Source: Psychroflexus curvus
Lineage (GTDB): Bacteria; Bacteroidota; Bacteroidia; Flavobacteriales; Flavobacteriaceae
Assembly: GCF_020164585.1 (NCBI RefSeq)
Contig: NZ_JAIQZF010000004.1
Span: 310,001-374,000, forward strand
Reading direction: 5' to 3'
DNA length: 64,000 bases
In this document: positions 7,922 to 60,711 of the stretch, piece by piece
Numbering within the stretch: the stretch's first letter is position 1
Layout of the letters: each line of letters starts with the position of its first letter
Program-made: the position numbers and the translations under genes
The notes under the pieces: generated by a model
The model's database searches: none
What the model was told of the DNA's origin: nothing
The model's input: only the letters and a program-made list of their open reading frames with translations

Positions 7922-10900
7922 TTACATGTTTCTTCTATACTGCCCACCAACCTCAAACAAGGCTTCGGTGATTTGTCCCAAAGAACAGTATTTAGTAGCT
8001 TCCATCAATTCTTCAAACATGTTCTCATTCTTGATAGCCGCTTCCTGAATGCGTTTCAGCTGATCCTGTGCTCTGTCTTCATAAACATGGTGCAACTTGG
8101 TAAGCGTGTTGATCTGGTATTCCTTTTCCTCTTCAGTCGCGCGGATGACTTCTCTTGGCTTCACCGTTGGCGATCCTTTGGAACTCAAAAACGTATTCAC
8201 TCCGATAATTGGGAATTCTCCCGTGTGCTTAAGGGTTTCGTAATGCAGACTTTCCTCCTGAATTTTGCTGCGCTGGTACATGGTTTCCATAGCCCCTAGC
8301 ACGCCTCCACGCTCTGTAAGTCGGTCAAATTCCAGCAATACGGCTTCCTCGACAAGGTCTGTCAATTCCTCAATGATGAACGAGCCTTGGATTGGATTTT
8401 CGTTTTTAGCAAGTCCTAATTCTTTATTGATAATCAACTGAATGGCCATGGCACGTCGCACCGATTCTTCGGTTGGCGTGGTAATCGCTTCGTCATAAGC
8501 ATTGGTGTGCAAGGAGTTACAGTTATCGTAAATCGCGTACAAGGCTTGTAGCGTCGTACGGATATCGTTAAAATCAATTTCCTGCGCATGAAGCGATCGT
8601 CCTGAGGTCTGAATATGGTATTTCAACATTTGAGCTCTCGAATTCGCACCATATTTATCTCGCATAGCTTTAGACCAGATTCGTCTCGCCACTCTACCAA
8701 TCACCGCATATTCGGGATCGATGCCATTGGAGAAAAAGAAACTCAGGTTAGGCCCAAATTTATTGATATCCATGCCTCGGCTCAGGTAGTATTCGACGTA
8801 TGTAAATCCATTGGAGAGGGTCAGAGCCAGTTGCGTGATCGGATTGGCCCCGGCTTCAGCAATATGGTACCCAGAAATAGAAACCGAATAGAAATTTCTT
8901 ACTTTGTTATTGATAAAATACTCCTGAACATCACCCATCAGACGAATGGCAAATTCAGTAGAGAAAATACAGGTGTTTTGCGCCTGATCTTCTTTCAGGA
9001 TATCGGCCTGAACCGTTCCGCGAACTACGGCGATGGTTTCCATCTTGATCTCCTGGTAGACATCTGCCGGCAAGACCATATCGCCGGTCACGCCAAGCAG
9101 CATCAATCCCAGTCCGTTATTCCCTTCTGGAAGTTCACCCTGGTAGGTTGGACGCTCGCTGCCGTTTTCTTTATATATCTTTTTGATTTTAGCCTCAACT
9201 TCCTTTTCAAGACCGTTTTCCTTGATGTATTTTTCACACTGCTGATCGATGGCGGCATTCATAAAAAAGCCAAGCAGCATAGGTGCTGGTCCGTTTATGG
9301 TCATACTCACAGAAGTCATGGCATCTGCCAGGTCAAAACCTGAATAGAGTTTTTTGGCGTCGTCCAGACAGCAAATAGACACTCCCGCATTCCCGATTTT
9401 ACCGTAAATATCTGGTCGATGGTCAGGGTCATTCCCGTAAAGCGTCACAGAATCGAAAGCTGTAGACAAACGTTTGGCTGGTAAGCCAGCACTCACGTAG
9501 TGAAACCTGCGATTGGTACGTTCTGGTCCGCCTTCTCCGGCAAACATTCTCGTTGGATCTTCGCCAGTTCTTTTGAAAGGGTAAAGTCCTGCCGTGTAGG
9601 GAAATTCTCCTGGAACGTTTTCCTGCAATAACCATTTGAGCAAATCTCCCCAGGCCTTGTATTTTGGCAAAGCTACCTTCGGAATTTTAAGATGTGAAAG
9701 GGACTCCGAATAAGTGTCAATTTTGATTTCTTTATCCCTTACTTTGAAGGTGTAAACCTCATCGGTATATTTCTGAACGACATTTTCCCAGCCTAAAATC
9801 TTCTCCCAGTTATAAGGGTCGAAATCCATTTTAACGCGGTCAAATTCTTTTTTCAGCAGATCCACCAAAGTCTCATTGTCTGAAGTAGTAACCTCTTCCA
9901 AATGACTTTCTTCGATACCGTTTTTATCCAATTCAAGTTTAGAATCGGTTGTGCTTTCTAAAGTTTTGAAAATTCCGTATAGCTTTTGTGCGACCTCCAC
10001 TTGAGAGTTCGCCTTTTCATCGTAAGAGCGGTTGTTTTCTGATATTTCTGAAAGGTAACGGGTTCTGGCTGGGGGAATTACAAATATTTTCTCCGACATC
10101 TCATCGGTGATTTGATAATCACTTTTGAGTGAAGTCGATGTTTTTTCAGACAATTGATCCATTATTCTTTTGTAAAGAACATTCATTCCAGGATCGTTAA
10201 ATTGAGAAGCTATCGTTCCATAAACAGGTAAAGTTTCTGGCTTGGCATCCCACAGATTATGATTGCGCTGGTATTGCTTTTTAACATCTCTCAAAGCGTC
10301 TTTGGCACCGCGTTTATCAAATTTGTTGATGGCTACCAAATCAGCGAAGTCCAGCATATCAATTTTTTCCAGCTGCGTTGCTGCACCAAATTCTGGTGTC
10401 ATAACATAAAGAGAAACGTCAGAGTGGTCTAAGATTTCGGTATCACTTTGTCCGATACCAGAGGTTTCTAATATGATAAGGTCATAGTTGGCTGCTTTCA
10501 TGACTTCCACTGCTTCCTGAACATATTTGGATAAAGCCAGGTTGGATTGTCGAGTCGCTAATGAACGCATATACACTCGTGGTGAGTTGATGGCATTCAT
10601 GCGAATTCTATCCCCTAGCAGGGCGCCGCCTGTTCTCCTTTTGGAAGGGTCTACAGAGATAATACCGATTTGTTTGTCTTCAAAATCAACCAAAAACCGA
10701 CGAACCAACTCATCGACCAAGGAAGATTTTCCTGAGCCCCCTGTTCCCGTAATTCCCAAAACGGGAGTAGCCTCCCCCGACCCCTCCAAAGGAGGGGTGA
10801 AAAGTTCTTTAAATTCTTCGTGTCTGTTTTCTGCTAAAGAAATTAAACGTGCAATAGTATTGACATCTTTTTGATGAAGTGCGTCTTGAATTCCCTTCCC

Positions 10901-11362
10901 TTTGGGAAGGGTAAGGGATGGGCATTTGAAGTCAGCTTGTTTTACCAAGTCATTGATCATTCCCTGCAGTCCCATTTCACGCCCGTCATCCGGAGAATAA
11001 ATTCGGGTAATGCCATACTCCATCAATTCTTCAATTTCTTCAGTAAGAATGACTCCTCCTCCTCCACCGAAGATTTTAATATGCCCTGCCCCTTTCTCCT
11101 GGAGCAAATCGTACATATACTTGAAATATTCATTGTGACCACCCTGGTAGGATGTCATCGCAATGGCATTCACATCTTCTTGAATAGCAGTATTAACAAC
11201 CTCCTCAACACCTCTATCGTGTCCGAGATGAATCACTTCCACCCCGGTGGATTGAATGATACGACGCATCACATTGATGGCAGCATCATGGCCGTCGAAT
11301 AAAGAGGCGGCAGTGACAATTCGTATTTGATGTTGTGGGGTATATGGCTTTTGTTGCTCCAT
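7922..11362 (-). CDS. icmF: Fused isobutyryl-CoA mutase (IcmF)
   Basis: 1,146 residues in three modules: a cobalamin-binding domain (about 10-145, FDGHDAA with H25 as likely cobalt ligand), a MeaB-type GTPase chaperone (P-loop GTGGSGKSS at about 206-214), and the mutase barrel (about 560-1146). The fusion order and [18 protein letters not shown] point to IcmF, which interconverts isobutyryl- and n-butyryl-CoA, rather than methylmalonyl-CoA mutase. Two linkers, residues 147-157 ([10 protein letters not shown]) and 189-198 (PPLEGSGEA), are encoded by dispersed GC-rich hairpin repeats inserted in frame. A separate meaB lies at 59629-60711. Confidence 0.93.
10770..10797. repeat. Dispersed GC-rich hairpin repeat inside icmF (copy 1)
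   Basis: CCCCTCC-AAA-GGAGGGG with a GCCTCCCC leader. 25 of 28 bases match the intergenic copy at 42779-42806. Read through icmF it encodes [10 protein letters not shown], just before the GTPase P-loop. It keeps the frame open: the TAG of the intergenic copy is CGA here. Confidence 0.8.
10893..10922. repeat. Dispersed hairpin repeat inside icmF (copy 2)
   Basis: CCCTTCCC-TTT-GGGAAGGG followed by TAAGGGATGGGC. It resembles the second intergenic hairpin at 42858-42885 (CCTCCCC-TTT-GGGGAGG then TTAGGTGGGG). In icmF it encodes [10 protein letters not shown] at the end of the cobalamin domain. Confidence 0.7.
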
Positions 11363-42778: not shown

Positions 42779-42885
42779 GCCTCCCCTAGCCCCTCCAAAG
42801 GAGGGGGATTCTGGGGTGATTTTTAATTAATAATTCGTTTTATCATACCTTAAAGTTCCTCCCCTTTGGGGAGGTTAGGTGGGGC
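42779..42885. repeat. GC-rich dispersed hairpin pair between transketolase halves
   Basis: Hairpin 1: CCCCTCC-AAA-GGAGGGG (42790-42806) with a GCCTCCCCTAG leader from 42779. Hairpin 2: CCTCCCC-TTT-GGGGAGG (42858-42874) followed by TTAGGTGGGG. The same two units occur inside icmF. It probably sits in the transcript between the two coding regions. Confidence 0.8.
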
Positions 42886-45017: not shown

Positions 45018-46094
45018 TTGAAAATAATTGACTGGTACATACTGAAGCGATACTTAGCCACATTTATATCGCTATTACTAATGTTTATCCCCATAGGTAT
45101 CATTGTCAATTTATCTGAAAAAATCGATGATATCAAAGAAAATGAAGTTCCTTTAGACGAAGTATTGGTCTTTTATGGCAATTTCACCATCTATTTTGCC
45201 AATTTACTTTTCCCTATATTCCTTTTCTTATCCATTATCTGGTTCACCTCCAAACTTGCTAACAATACTGAAATTATAGCCATCTTAAGCTCAGGGATTT
45301 CGTTTTGGAGATTCCTAAGACCTTACCTTATAGGTGCAACTTTAGTTTGTGGTGTAGCCTTAGTTTTTACAATGTATCTTGTTCCCAACGCAAGCCGGGA
45401 GTTTAATGAATTCAAGTATAAATATTTCAAAAAAGGAAGACAAGCTCAGGAGACTACAAATGTTTACAGACAGGTCAATGACGAAGAATTCATCTTTGCA
45501 ACCAATTTTCAACCCAAAACCAGGACCGCAAGAAATTTTACCTTGGAACATTTTGAAGACAACGAAATGAAGTTTAAAATTTCTGCCTCAAGATTAAAAT
45601 TCAACCCTGAGGACTCTACATTTACCCTCAGCAATTTTGAGAAGAGAACCATAAAAGAACGCGAAGACTTTATTTACAGACAAACGTCTTTAGATACAGT
45701 CCTGCCATTTGAATTCGATGAGCTCACCCCTGTTGAATATATAGCAGAGACTTTGGATTATGGAGAGCTTAGAGATTTTATCGCTACCGAAAAACGAAGA
45801 GGCTCTTCCAACATAAGCAGTTACCAAATCGTAGCCTACAAGCGCTGGAGTGTTCCTATTTCTGCCTTTATACTCACCATTATTGCAGTATCAGTTTCAG
45901 CGATGAAAAGACGTGGAGGCATGGGCGTAAATCTAGCTATAGGAATTGTGATTGCCTTTGGATATATCTTTTTGGATAAAGTATTTGGAACCATTGCAGA
46001 AAAATCAACATTTTCACCACTTATTGCGGTCTGGTTTTCTAATATCTTATTTGGAATTCTTGCCATTTATCTATTGATCAAGGCTAAACGCTAG
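45018..46094 (+). CDS. LptF/LptG-family permease
   Basis: 358 residues from TTG at 45018. It has the arrangement of LptF/LptG: N-terminal membrane helices (about 15-35, 60-80, 100-120), a periplasmic beta-jellyroll (about 130-260) and C-terminal helices (about 275-355). It pulls LPS from the inner membrane for LptB-driven export; lptB is at 50340-51095. The second permease is not in this window. It starts 10 bases after tgt, so they are co-transcribed. Confidence 0.9.
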   Translation: MKIIDWYILKRYLATFISLLLMFIPIGIIVNLSEKIDDIKENEVPLDEVLVFYGNFTIYFANLLFPIFLFLSIIWFTSKLANNTEIIAILSSGISFWRFLRPYLIGATLVCGVALVFTMYLVPNASREFNEFKYKYFKKGRQAQETTNVYRQVNDEEFIFATNFQPKTRTARNFTLEHFEDNEMKFKISASRLKFNPEDSTFTLSNFEKRTIKEREDFIYRQTSLDTVLPFEFDELTPVEYIAETLDYGELRDFIATEKRRGSSNISSYQIVAYKRWSVPISAFILTIIAVSVSAMKRRGGMGVNLAIGIVIAFGYIFLDKVFGTIAEKSTFSPLIAVWFSNILFGILAIYLLIKAKR

Positions 46095-46147
46095 TTGAGT
46101 TGGTGAGTTGGTGAGTTGGTGAGTTGGTGAGTTGGTGAGTTGGTGAG
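46094..46147. repeat. Tandem octamer array (GTTGGTGA)n
   Basis: Six perfect GTTGGTGA units at 46099-46146 after a partial unit. The array starts at the last base of the LptF/G stop codon. An A/T-rich tract with GGTATTC and TTACATC doublets follows to about 46215. Copy number may vary by slippage. Confidence 0.85.
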
Positions 46148-46349
46148 AAAAATAAAAAATTTAAATTTAAAATTCGAAGTTCGGTATTCGGTATTCGATA
46201 TTCTTACATCTTACATCTAATTTCTAGGATCTAAACACACTGCATTATCAATCAATTCTTTATTTTTGTCGACCACTTATGATTATCAAAATAAACAGAT
46301 ATACTTTCATATATTTGCTAACTGACTTTTAAAGAAATACACTGTATTC

Positions 46350-59628: not shown

Positions 59629-60711
59629 ATGTCTTCGTCCAAAAATAGAAAATCTGCGCTTAAGGAAACTAAAAGCGATCCAAACCTCAATCTGAGTCAG
59701 TCGTCCGCAGAAAAGATTAAGGCTTTAAGAAGGGAATCAAAAGACATTCAAAAATTAATTGAAGGTATTTTAAATGGCAATAAAACTAACTTAAGTCAGG
59801 CGATAACGCTCATTGAAAGTCGAAGTAAACGGCATGCTGAAGACATAAAAACCATTATATCGTCGTGTTTGCCGCATTCCAATAAGTCTTTAAGAATAGG
59901 GATTACGGGTGTTCCGGGTGTAGGAAAAAGCACGTTTATAGAGCAACTAGGCTTACTTCTGGCGGGAAAAGGGCATAAGGTTGCCGTGTTGGCAGTGGAC
60001 CCTTCCAGCTCGGTGACCAGAGGAAGTATTCTGGGAGATAAAACGCGTATGGAGAAGCTGGTTCAGCACCCCAATGCATTCATCCGCCCAACAGCTTCCG
60101 GGGAGTCTTTAGGCGGTGTAGCCAGAAAAACACGGGAAAGCATTTTGCTGTGTGAAGCTGCTGGATTTGACATCATGCTCATAGAAACCGTTGGTGTTGG
60201 ACAAAGCGAAACCGCTGTTCATAGCATGACGGATTTCTTTTTACTATTAAAACTCGCTGGAGCTGGTGATGAATTGCAAGGTATAAAACGCGGCATTATT
60301 GAAATGGCTGATGCTATTGTCATCAATAAAGCAGATGGAGAAAATATAAAAGCTGCTAAAAAAGCAAAAGTTGAATTCAATCGTGCTTTACATATGTATC
60401 CTTCAAAGGCTAATGGCTGGGAACCAAAAGTGAAACTTGCCAGTGCTTTAAAAAACGAAGGCATCGAAAACGTCTGGAATATGCTTTCCGATTACTTTTC
60501 AAAAGCAAAAGGCAATGGATTTTTTGAAGAGAAAAGAGCTAGTCAAAATAAATTTTGGCTCACACAAAGCATTGAAGATTCTTTGAAAAAAGAATTCTAT
60601 CAAAATGAAATTATCAAGGCTGAATTTCCGAAAATCCTGCAGAAAATTCAGGGTCAGGACTTAAGTCCTTTTGAAGCGGCAGAATATCTTCTAAATAAAG
60701 CTAAATCCTAA
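59629..60711 (+). CDS. meaB: Methylmalonyl-CoA mutase-associated GTPase MeaB
   Basis: 360 residues. The P-loop is GITGVPGVGKST (91-102); DPSSSVTRGSILGDKTRME, ETVGVGQSE and VINKADGEN follow. MeaB protects and reloads cobalamin-dependent mutases. The IcmF fusion in this window carries its own MeaB-like domain, so this copy likely serves a separate methylmalonyl-CoA mutase not in the window. The stop overlaps that of the convergent PAP2 gene by four bases. TAAATTTG at 59606-59613 is a possible -7 element. Confidence 0.95.
   Translation: MSSSKNRKSALKETKSDPNLNLSQSSAEKIKALRRESKDIQKLIEGILNGNKTNLSQAITLIESRSKRHAEDIKTIISSCLPHSNKSLRIGITGVPGVGKSTFIEQLGLLLAGKGHKVAVLAVDPSSSVTRGSILGDKTRMEKLVQHPNAFIRPTASGESLGGVARKTRESILLCEAAGFDIMLIETVGVGQSETAVHSMTDFFLLLKLAGAGDELQGIKRGIIEMADAIVINKADGENIKAAKKAKVEFNRALHMYPSKANGWEPKVKLASALKNEGIENVWNMLSDYFSKAKGNGFFEEKRASQNKFWLTQSIEDSLKKEFYQNEIIKAEFPKILQKIQGQDLSPFEAAEYLLNKAKS

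Follow-up and report, generated by a model that had tools for sequence, protein, structure and literature searches.

The two hairpin-encoded linkers of icmF, the gene for a fused isobutyryl-CoA mutase, are best explained, with slightly better than even confidence on our part, as a doublet of a dispersed unit that marks the ends of an exchangeable cassette, spread by break and copy with a DUF559 nuclease as the likely driver. Our confidence was lowered because some of the linkers are longer and because icmF linkers evolve fast. The case is of high interest, since it leads to a nuclease framed by similar ends inside conserved enzymes, and it suggests that mobile DNA can reside in working genes in a manner not yet described.

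We analyzed a 64-kb stretch of DNA, hereafter the window, whose list of open reading frames gives icmF a product of 1146 aa. This product matches the Pfam families B12-binding, MeaB and MM_CoA_mutase, has the solved IcmF 4xc6 as a structural relative, and finds its best named relative in Psychroflexus tropicus (90%). The first-pass annotation had noticed that two stretches of IcmF (residues 147-157 and 189-198) are encoded in frame by GC-rich hairpins, and we confirm this observation together with the positions of both hairpins (Table 1). The two units lie in frame on either side of the helix leading into the GTPase domain, and the pair is oriented feet outward. In the predicted structure of residues 1-420, the coils 144-157 and 188-200 hold the unit peptides, beside helices 158-187. 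On the gene strand, the N unit is composed of the foot CCCATCCC, the link TTA and the hairpin CCCTTCCC AAA GGGAAGGG; on the plus strand, the C unit is composed of the foot CCTCCCC, the link CGA and the hairpin CCCCTCC AAA GGAGGGG. Two terminator-like sites were found around the icmF linker, neither of which coincides with the units, and Rfam returned no match in the window. Elsewhere in the window (59800-60501, plus strand), a 361-aa frame is 29% identical to the GTPase part of icmF and probably encodes a GTPase of the MeaB/ArgK type.

Table 1. Positions in the window of icmF, its two hairpin units with the segment between them, and the intergenic doublet.
Feature	Position	Strand	Evidence or remark
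icmF, fused isobutyryl-CoA mutase (B12 domain, MeaB-like GTPase, mutase)	7922-11362	minus	ORF, Pfam, solved-structure match
C unit in icmF	10770-10797	plus-strand layout	encodes residues 189-198 on minus strand
Inter-unit segment of icmF	10798-10892	minus	helix region preceding GTPase domain; part of exchanged module
N unit in icmF	10893-10923	minus	sequence, triplex rule; encodes residues 147-157
Intergenic unit, left half of feet-outward doublet	42779-42806	plus	sequence, triplex rule
Intergenic unit, right half of the same doublet	42858-42885	minus	sequence, triplex rule

Both units belong to a family that is dispersed through the genome. The C unit and the left intergenic unit are 89% alike over 28 bases, and the core CCCCTCCAAAGGAGGGG occurs exactly four times in the 3.0-Mb genome compared with no occurrence of a reversed control. 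A covariance model of the unit, built from six copies including the two of icmF, returned at least 22 matches genome-wide at E ≤ 0.02 (150 of 410 candidates scored). The genome copies and the predicted coils bear out the earlier proposal that dispersed repeats supply linker residues in frame at the GTPase entry. The share of units that fall in genes can be given in part: at the 30 loci inspected, four units lie in recognised enzyme genes, two in icmF and two in leuS, and the remaining ones lie between genes, at the ends of genes or in other reading frames. One of the units of this genome (C1:510019, L001) was seen by eye near an apparent rRNA gene end. The first-pass annotation had also pointed to CGA in the genic copy where the intergenic copy has TAG. 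This difference is real, but no stop codon arises in the icmF frame either way, as the TAG form reads GGG CTA GGG. Stop-codon avoidance was rejected as the cause of the difference on these grounds, and CGA is found in copies elsewhere too.

All units share the same layout: a foot, 6-9 bases long and mostly pyrimidine, is joined by a link of variable letters (TAG, TAA, CAG, CAA, CGA and others; about 3 nt) to a hairpin. The foot mirrors an arm of this hairpin, with A frequently taking the place of T. Over 74 distinct units drawn from model hits, the mirror identity between foot and arm was 0.808, compared with 0.691 after shuffling (sd 0.013, maximum 0.727, 2000 shuffles). In the same set, the foot bears T at 60 of 108 positions opposite T in the arm and at 35 of 423 positions opposite C. 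Because these loci came from model hits, we repeated the test on units found by position beside DUF559 domains, with 36 distinct units retained out of 62, and again measured a higher identity than in shuffled feet (0.783 and 0.715, respectively; 0 of 5000 shuffles). The same holds with one row for each of the 17 arm types, represented by one hand-picked foot each (0.912 and 0.720, respectively; 0 of 20000 shuffles).

An arm, its complementary arm and a mirror tract, separated by short loops, make up the layout of a potential intrastrand triplex motif (class II purine or its complement). A triplex rule that we devised after inspection of the units identified three motifs in the window, at 10893-10922, 42780-42806 and 42858-42884, and none in three block-shuffled windows. 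The rule missed the C unit; by eye, an extra A-T pair lengthens its stem, and the unit is a perfect 7+7+7. When icmF loci were scanned with the rule, 14 motifs fell within 25.6 kb of linkers and only one within the other 386 kb.

We then considered the arrangement of neighbouring units, using 162 units of 11 genomes that we selected from model searches. Units lying at most 300 nt apart face feet outward in 25 cases, inward in two and in the same direction in ten. Most of the 162 units have no inverted partner, and feet outward is the commonest geometry of neighbours; two inverted units at short distance form a REPIN-like doublet. Four of the 25 outward pairs are in icmF and one is in the gene of dihydrolipoyl acyltransferase (E2), and units are found in frame in unrelated genes, icmF, leuS and E2. 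The E2 linkers with units come from two Psychroflexus genomes (L168, L170 and L182, with Pfam for L182 only). Positions 46088-46151 of the window hold a tandem array of the 8-mer TGAGTTGG, and a similar string adjoins the unit at C30:247013.

To follow the icmF linker through relatives, we extracted 135 distinct linkers and separated them by a helix motif into type I (58 linkers) and type II (77 linkers); L105 yielded none. At E ≤ 0.05, model hits were obtained in the linker at 16 out of 136 loci; the 58 type I linkers have none, and a single hit lies outside a linker. In every linker hit, the N and C units have the same orientation as here. When any hairpin on either side is counted, a score of 17 or more is reached by 22 of the 77 type II linkers and by no type I linker. 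On the tree of the flanking domains (135 rows, with 60 of 132 inner branches open), the linker type changes 16 times, and an AU test on 36 rows, hand-chosen to include conflicts, rejects type I as a single clade (p 8.8e-29). In eleven selected cross-type pairs, the flanks are 90-99% identical and the linkers 33-47%. At a flank identity of 0.94-0.96, linker identity is 0.32-0.38 between types (5 pairs), 0.59-0.84 within type I (25 pairs) and 0.44-0.90 within type II (45 pairs); as the types are defined by the linker itself, this compares two classes at equal flank identity, whatever their origin. Flank identity stays below 0.96 in all cross-type pairs, and type II pairs at or above this value have linker identities of 0.50-0.95. 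Linkers of icmF evolve fast in any case. Among 15 type II genes, linker DNA is no more alike than flank DNA in 104 of 105 pairs, the sole exception being L198/L194 (0.81 for the linker and 0.76 for the flank), so that no clearly recent transfer was caught. As read from these alignments and trees, the whole segment bracketed by the icmF units has been exchanged, in one direction or the other, between two linker types in separate lineages. The interior of the cassette is homologous to the native helix, and co-conversion between alleles fits this better than the insertion of foreign cargo.

Units like those of icmF also frame a predicted Vsr-like nuclease domain, DUF559, within leuS, ileS, metH and recG of many Bacteroidia. 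Alignment of the genes reveals that in Psychroflexus leuS and ileS the predicted nuclease domain has replaced a native loop. In leuS, for which three of the 27 genomes gave no match, the site holds the native 13 residues in 18 of 24 Psychroflexus genomes, a DUF559 cassette of 153-180 residues in five, and in one a solo left unit of 15 residues whose edge is identical to that of the DUF559 cassettes. In ileS, a cassette of 145-146 residues replaces the native loop in four of 21 parsed genes, and the other 17 have a short native loop (10 residues in 16 of them and six in one); the ileS genes of L321, L323 and L333 were unparsed and are outside this count. The genome under study itself carries a DUF559 domain in frame within leuS (C12:380235-380546, L255), with hairpin units bracketing it. 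The native leuS loop of L224, L234 and L244 is coded by a simple AAATTCAAAATTC repeat.

Across the family, DUF559 is present at E ≤ 1e-10 in 110 of 299 genomes, and at least 34 frames of 800 aa or more contain it among the 150 matches listed. We identified 29 of these long frames by eye, as leuS (16), metH (7), recG (5) and ileS (1). Because none of the 29 is icmF, it is the shared brackets that connect icmF with the nuclease. According to Pfam, DUF559 lies once each within a RecG, a LeuRS and a class I synthetase taken as IleRS, twice within a single MetH, and in fusion with two HemD proteins and one HisD. No splicing (Hint) family was detected at E ≤ 1e-5 in these seven proteins (one each of RecG, IleRS, MetH, LeuRS and HisD, and two HemD). 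Two metH genes (L338 and L372) have two DUF559 cassettes in a single frame; DUF559 precedes HemD in L350 and L352 (Pfam) and in L340 (by eye) and follows HisD in L349, with hairpins near. Around 37 cassettes, hairpins scoring at least 17 occur on the 5' side of 23, the 3' side of 19 and both sides of 14, compared with 13 of 265 control windows; at a score of at least 15, the numbers are 30, 32 and 26, compared with 40 of 265. Only 6 of 16 standalone DUF559 loci show a motif at most 500 nt from their centre, compared with 0 of 80 shuffled windows; three of the loci are cut by contig ends and off centre. A class-wide search found DUF559 in at least 84 of 198 genomes among the matches listed, with examples beyond the family; the 19 loci viewed comprise five leuS, five metH and one ileS, as judged by eye, seven others and one that was unparseable. 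In Escherichia coli K-12, a TM-like motif lies some 175 nt away from the 3' end of the DUF559 gene ycjD, and none was found on the 5' side; we do not count this single case as evidence.

Could the icmF hairpins have arrived in a simpler way? On the reading of the first-pass annotation, hairpin repeats dispersed in the genome entered two tolerant linkers by passive insertion and were retained as linker peptide. The units are in fact dispersed and located in coils, and lone units exist in leuS and in an E2 linker. Some hairpin-bearing linkers are at least 20 residues longer, which fits insertion: they measure 83-84 aa in L029 and L031, whose hairpins are different (L031 has an extra palindrome, ATCCCGAGACTTCGGGAT), and up to 91 aa in unit-bearing linkers outside Psychroflexus. 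The linker of L027, which has no model hit, measures 74 aa. LPKGK-like or FPKGK peptides persist with weak palindromes in the relatives L040, L067, L112 and L209 (N scores 13, 12, 14 and 6, respectively), possibly as predicted for the decay of a kept peptide, although a native motif would look identical. Simple addition of repeats finds no support in the six closest unit-bearing genes. Among 25 Psychroflexus linkers, these six measure 63-65 aa and the 16 without units 60-62 aa, a gain of only 1-5 residues, so the units mostly replace linker residues. The pairing of units feet outward and the exchange of the inter-unit segment along with them also speak against passive insertion, which we regard as unlikely; domestication of the repeat peptide as linker is possibly one ending of a larger process.

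We give a similarly low probability to ordinary homologous recombination that exchanged two linker alleles of icmF and carried the hairpins along as passengers. It agrees with the conserved DNA that flanks the segment and with the lack of hairpin enrichment in type II linkers amid type I relatives (9 of 23 compared with 16 of 54, p 0.44). However, in ten chosen pairs the flank DNA is no less similar to the near relative close to the linker (0.85 and 0.84 over the 30 nt that adjoin it) than at greater distance (0.78-0.83), in seven cross-type pairs the edges of exchange lie about a dozen nt or less from the outer ends of the unit feet, and replacement with similar brackets recurs in leuS and ileS. 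Movement of REPIN-type doublets by a RAYT transposase would account for the outward doublets. Y1_Tnp matches exist in 24 of 27 Psychroflexus genomes, the unit C30:22935 is about 4 kb from one of them, and the parts of PMC6006769 that we draw on describe atypical structures flanking the Bacteroidetes RAYT subclass 2.6. We nevertheless consider it a poor candidate, as no unit was found around any of the three Y1_Tnp matches of the genome under study or of seven loci of relatives (about 1.5-2 kb on each side, less at contig ends), and the foot is a mirror tract with no GTAG. Least probable is that the hairpins are selected within icmF for the structure they give the mRNA or for a pause in translation where the domains meet: several genera do have palindromes with different stems at this place, but a strong hairpin is missing from most type II linkers, as reflected by the 22 of 77 reported above.

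If the icmF hairpins do delimit an exchangeable cassette, its order would be foot-hairpin, pre-GTPase helix, hairpin-foot. An allele free of units would be broken by DUF559, or by stalling at the putative triplex, and repair of the break by copying the unit-bearing allele would install the cassette. Only copies in frame at interdomain linkers would survive, and solo or nuclease-free cassettes, such as that of icmF, would be by-products or relics. We infer this spread by break and copy, with DUF559 as driver and the triplex as stall or target. More broadly, and tentatively, since we rate this joint claim somewhat below an even chance, Bacteroidia may harbour a class of mobile elements whose coding cassettes, each bounded by a pair of triplex-forming hairpins, take the place of interdomain segments in essential enzymes, in frame and without splicing. 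The cassettes would contain either a DUF559 nuclease or, as in icmF, a plain host protein segment, and a selfish nuclease would partly drive linker evolution. This offers a testable route by which mobile DNA reshapes linkers in leucyl- and isoleucyl-tRNA synthetase, methionine synthase, RecG and IcmF while the frame stays open. In the open-access literature, which does not cover all print, we found no description of such unit-bracketed cassettes and no paper on DUF559 together with a tRNA synthetase.

Homing endonuclease genes and inteins place a nuclease domain in frame within conserved proteins and have a patchy distribution. DUF559 cassettes resemble them in both respects. They differ from inteins in having no splicing domain (Pfam, eight proteins scanned, seven of them with DUF559), and from both systems in that a native loop is replaced in leuS and ileS and triplex-type hairpins form the brackets. 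Rickettsia palindromic elements and intragenic REPs are likewise palindromic repeats found in frame in unrelated genes; unlike for our units, no mirror foot, nuclease cargo or segment exchange is described for the Rickettsia elements in the portions of PMC3733652 consulted. REPINs and RAYT-associated REPs are also dispersed inverted doublets of short hairpins, as far as the sections used of PMC6006769 describe them, whereas our units have no GTAG foot and none was found beside the Y1_Tnp matches examined. The closest likeness is to the intrastrand triplex motif TM/PIT of E. coli (Holder et al. 2015, PMC4666352), which, in the excerpts of that paper relied on here, consists of a C-rich arm, a short loop, a G-rich arm, a 3-nt loop and a mirror G-rich foot. 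TM/PIT occurs in inverted pairs and has a link to genome instability. Our units share its tract order and inverted pairing; they differ in lying in frame inside enzymes and in bracketing DUF559, whereas TM/PIT is always intergenic in MG1655 according to the same excerpts. The words endonuclease and DUF559 are absent from the text of PMC4666352. For triplex motifs of the E. coli type, for which that paper could name no specific function, our analysis offers a candidate partner, DUF559, and a candidate job, that of cassette ends.
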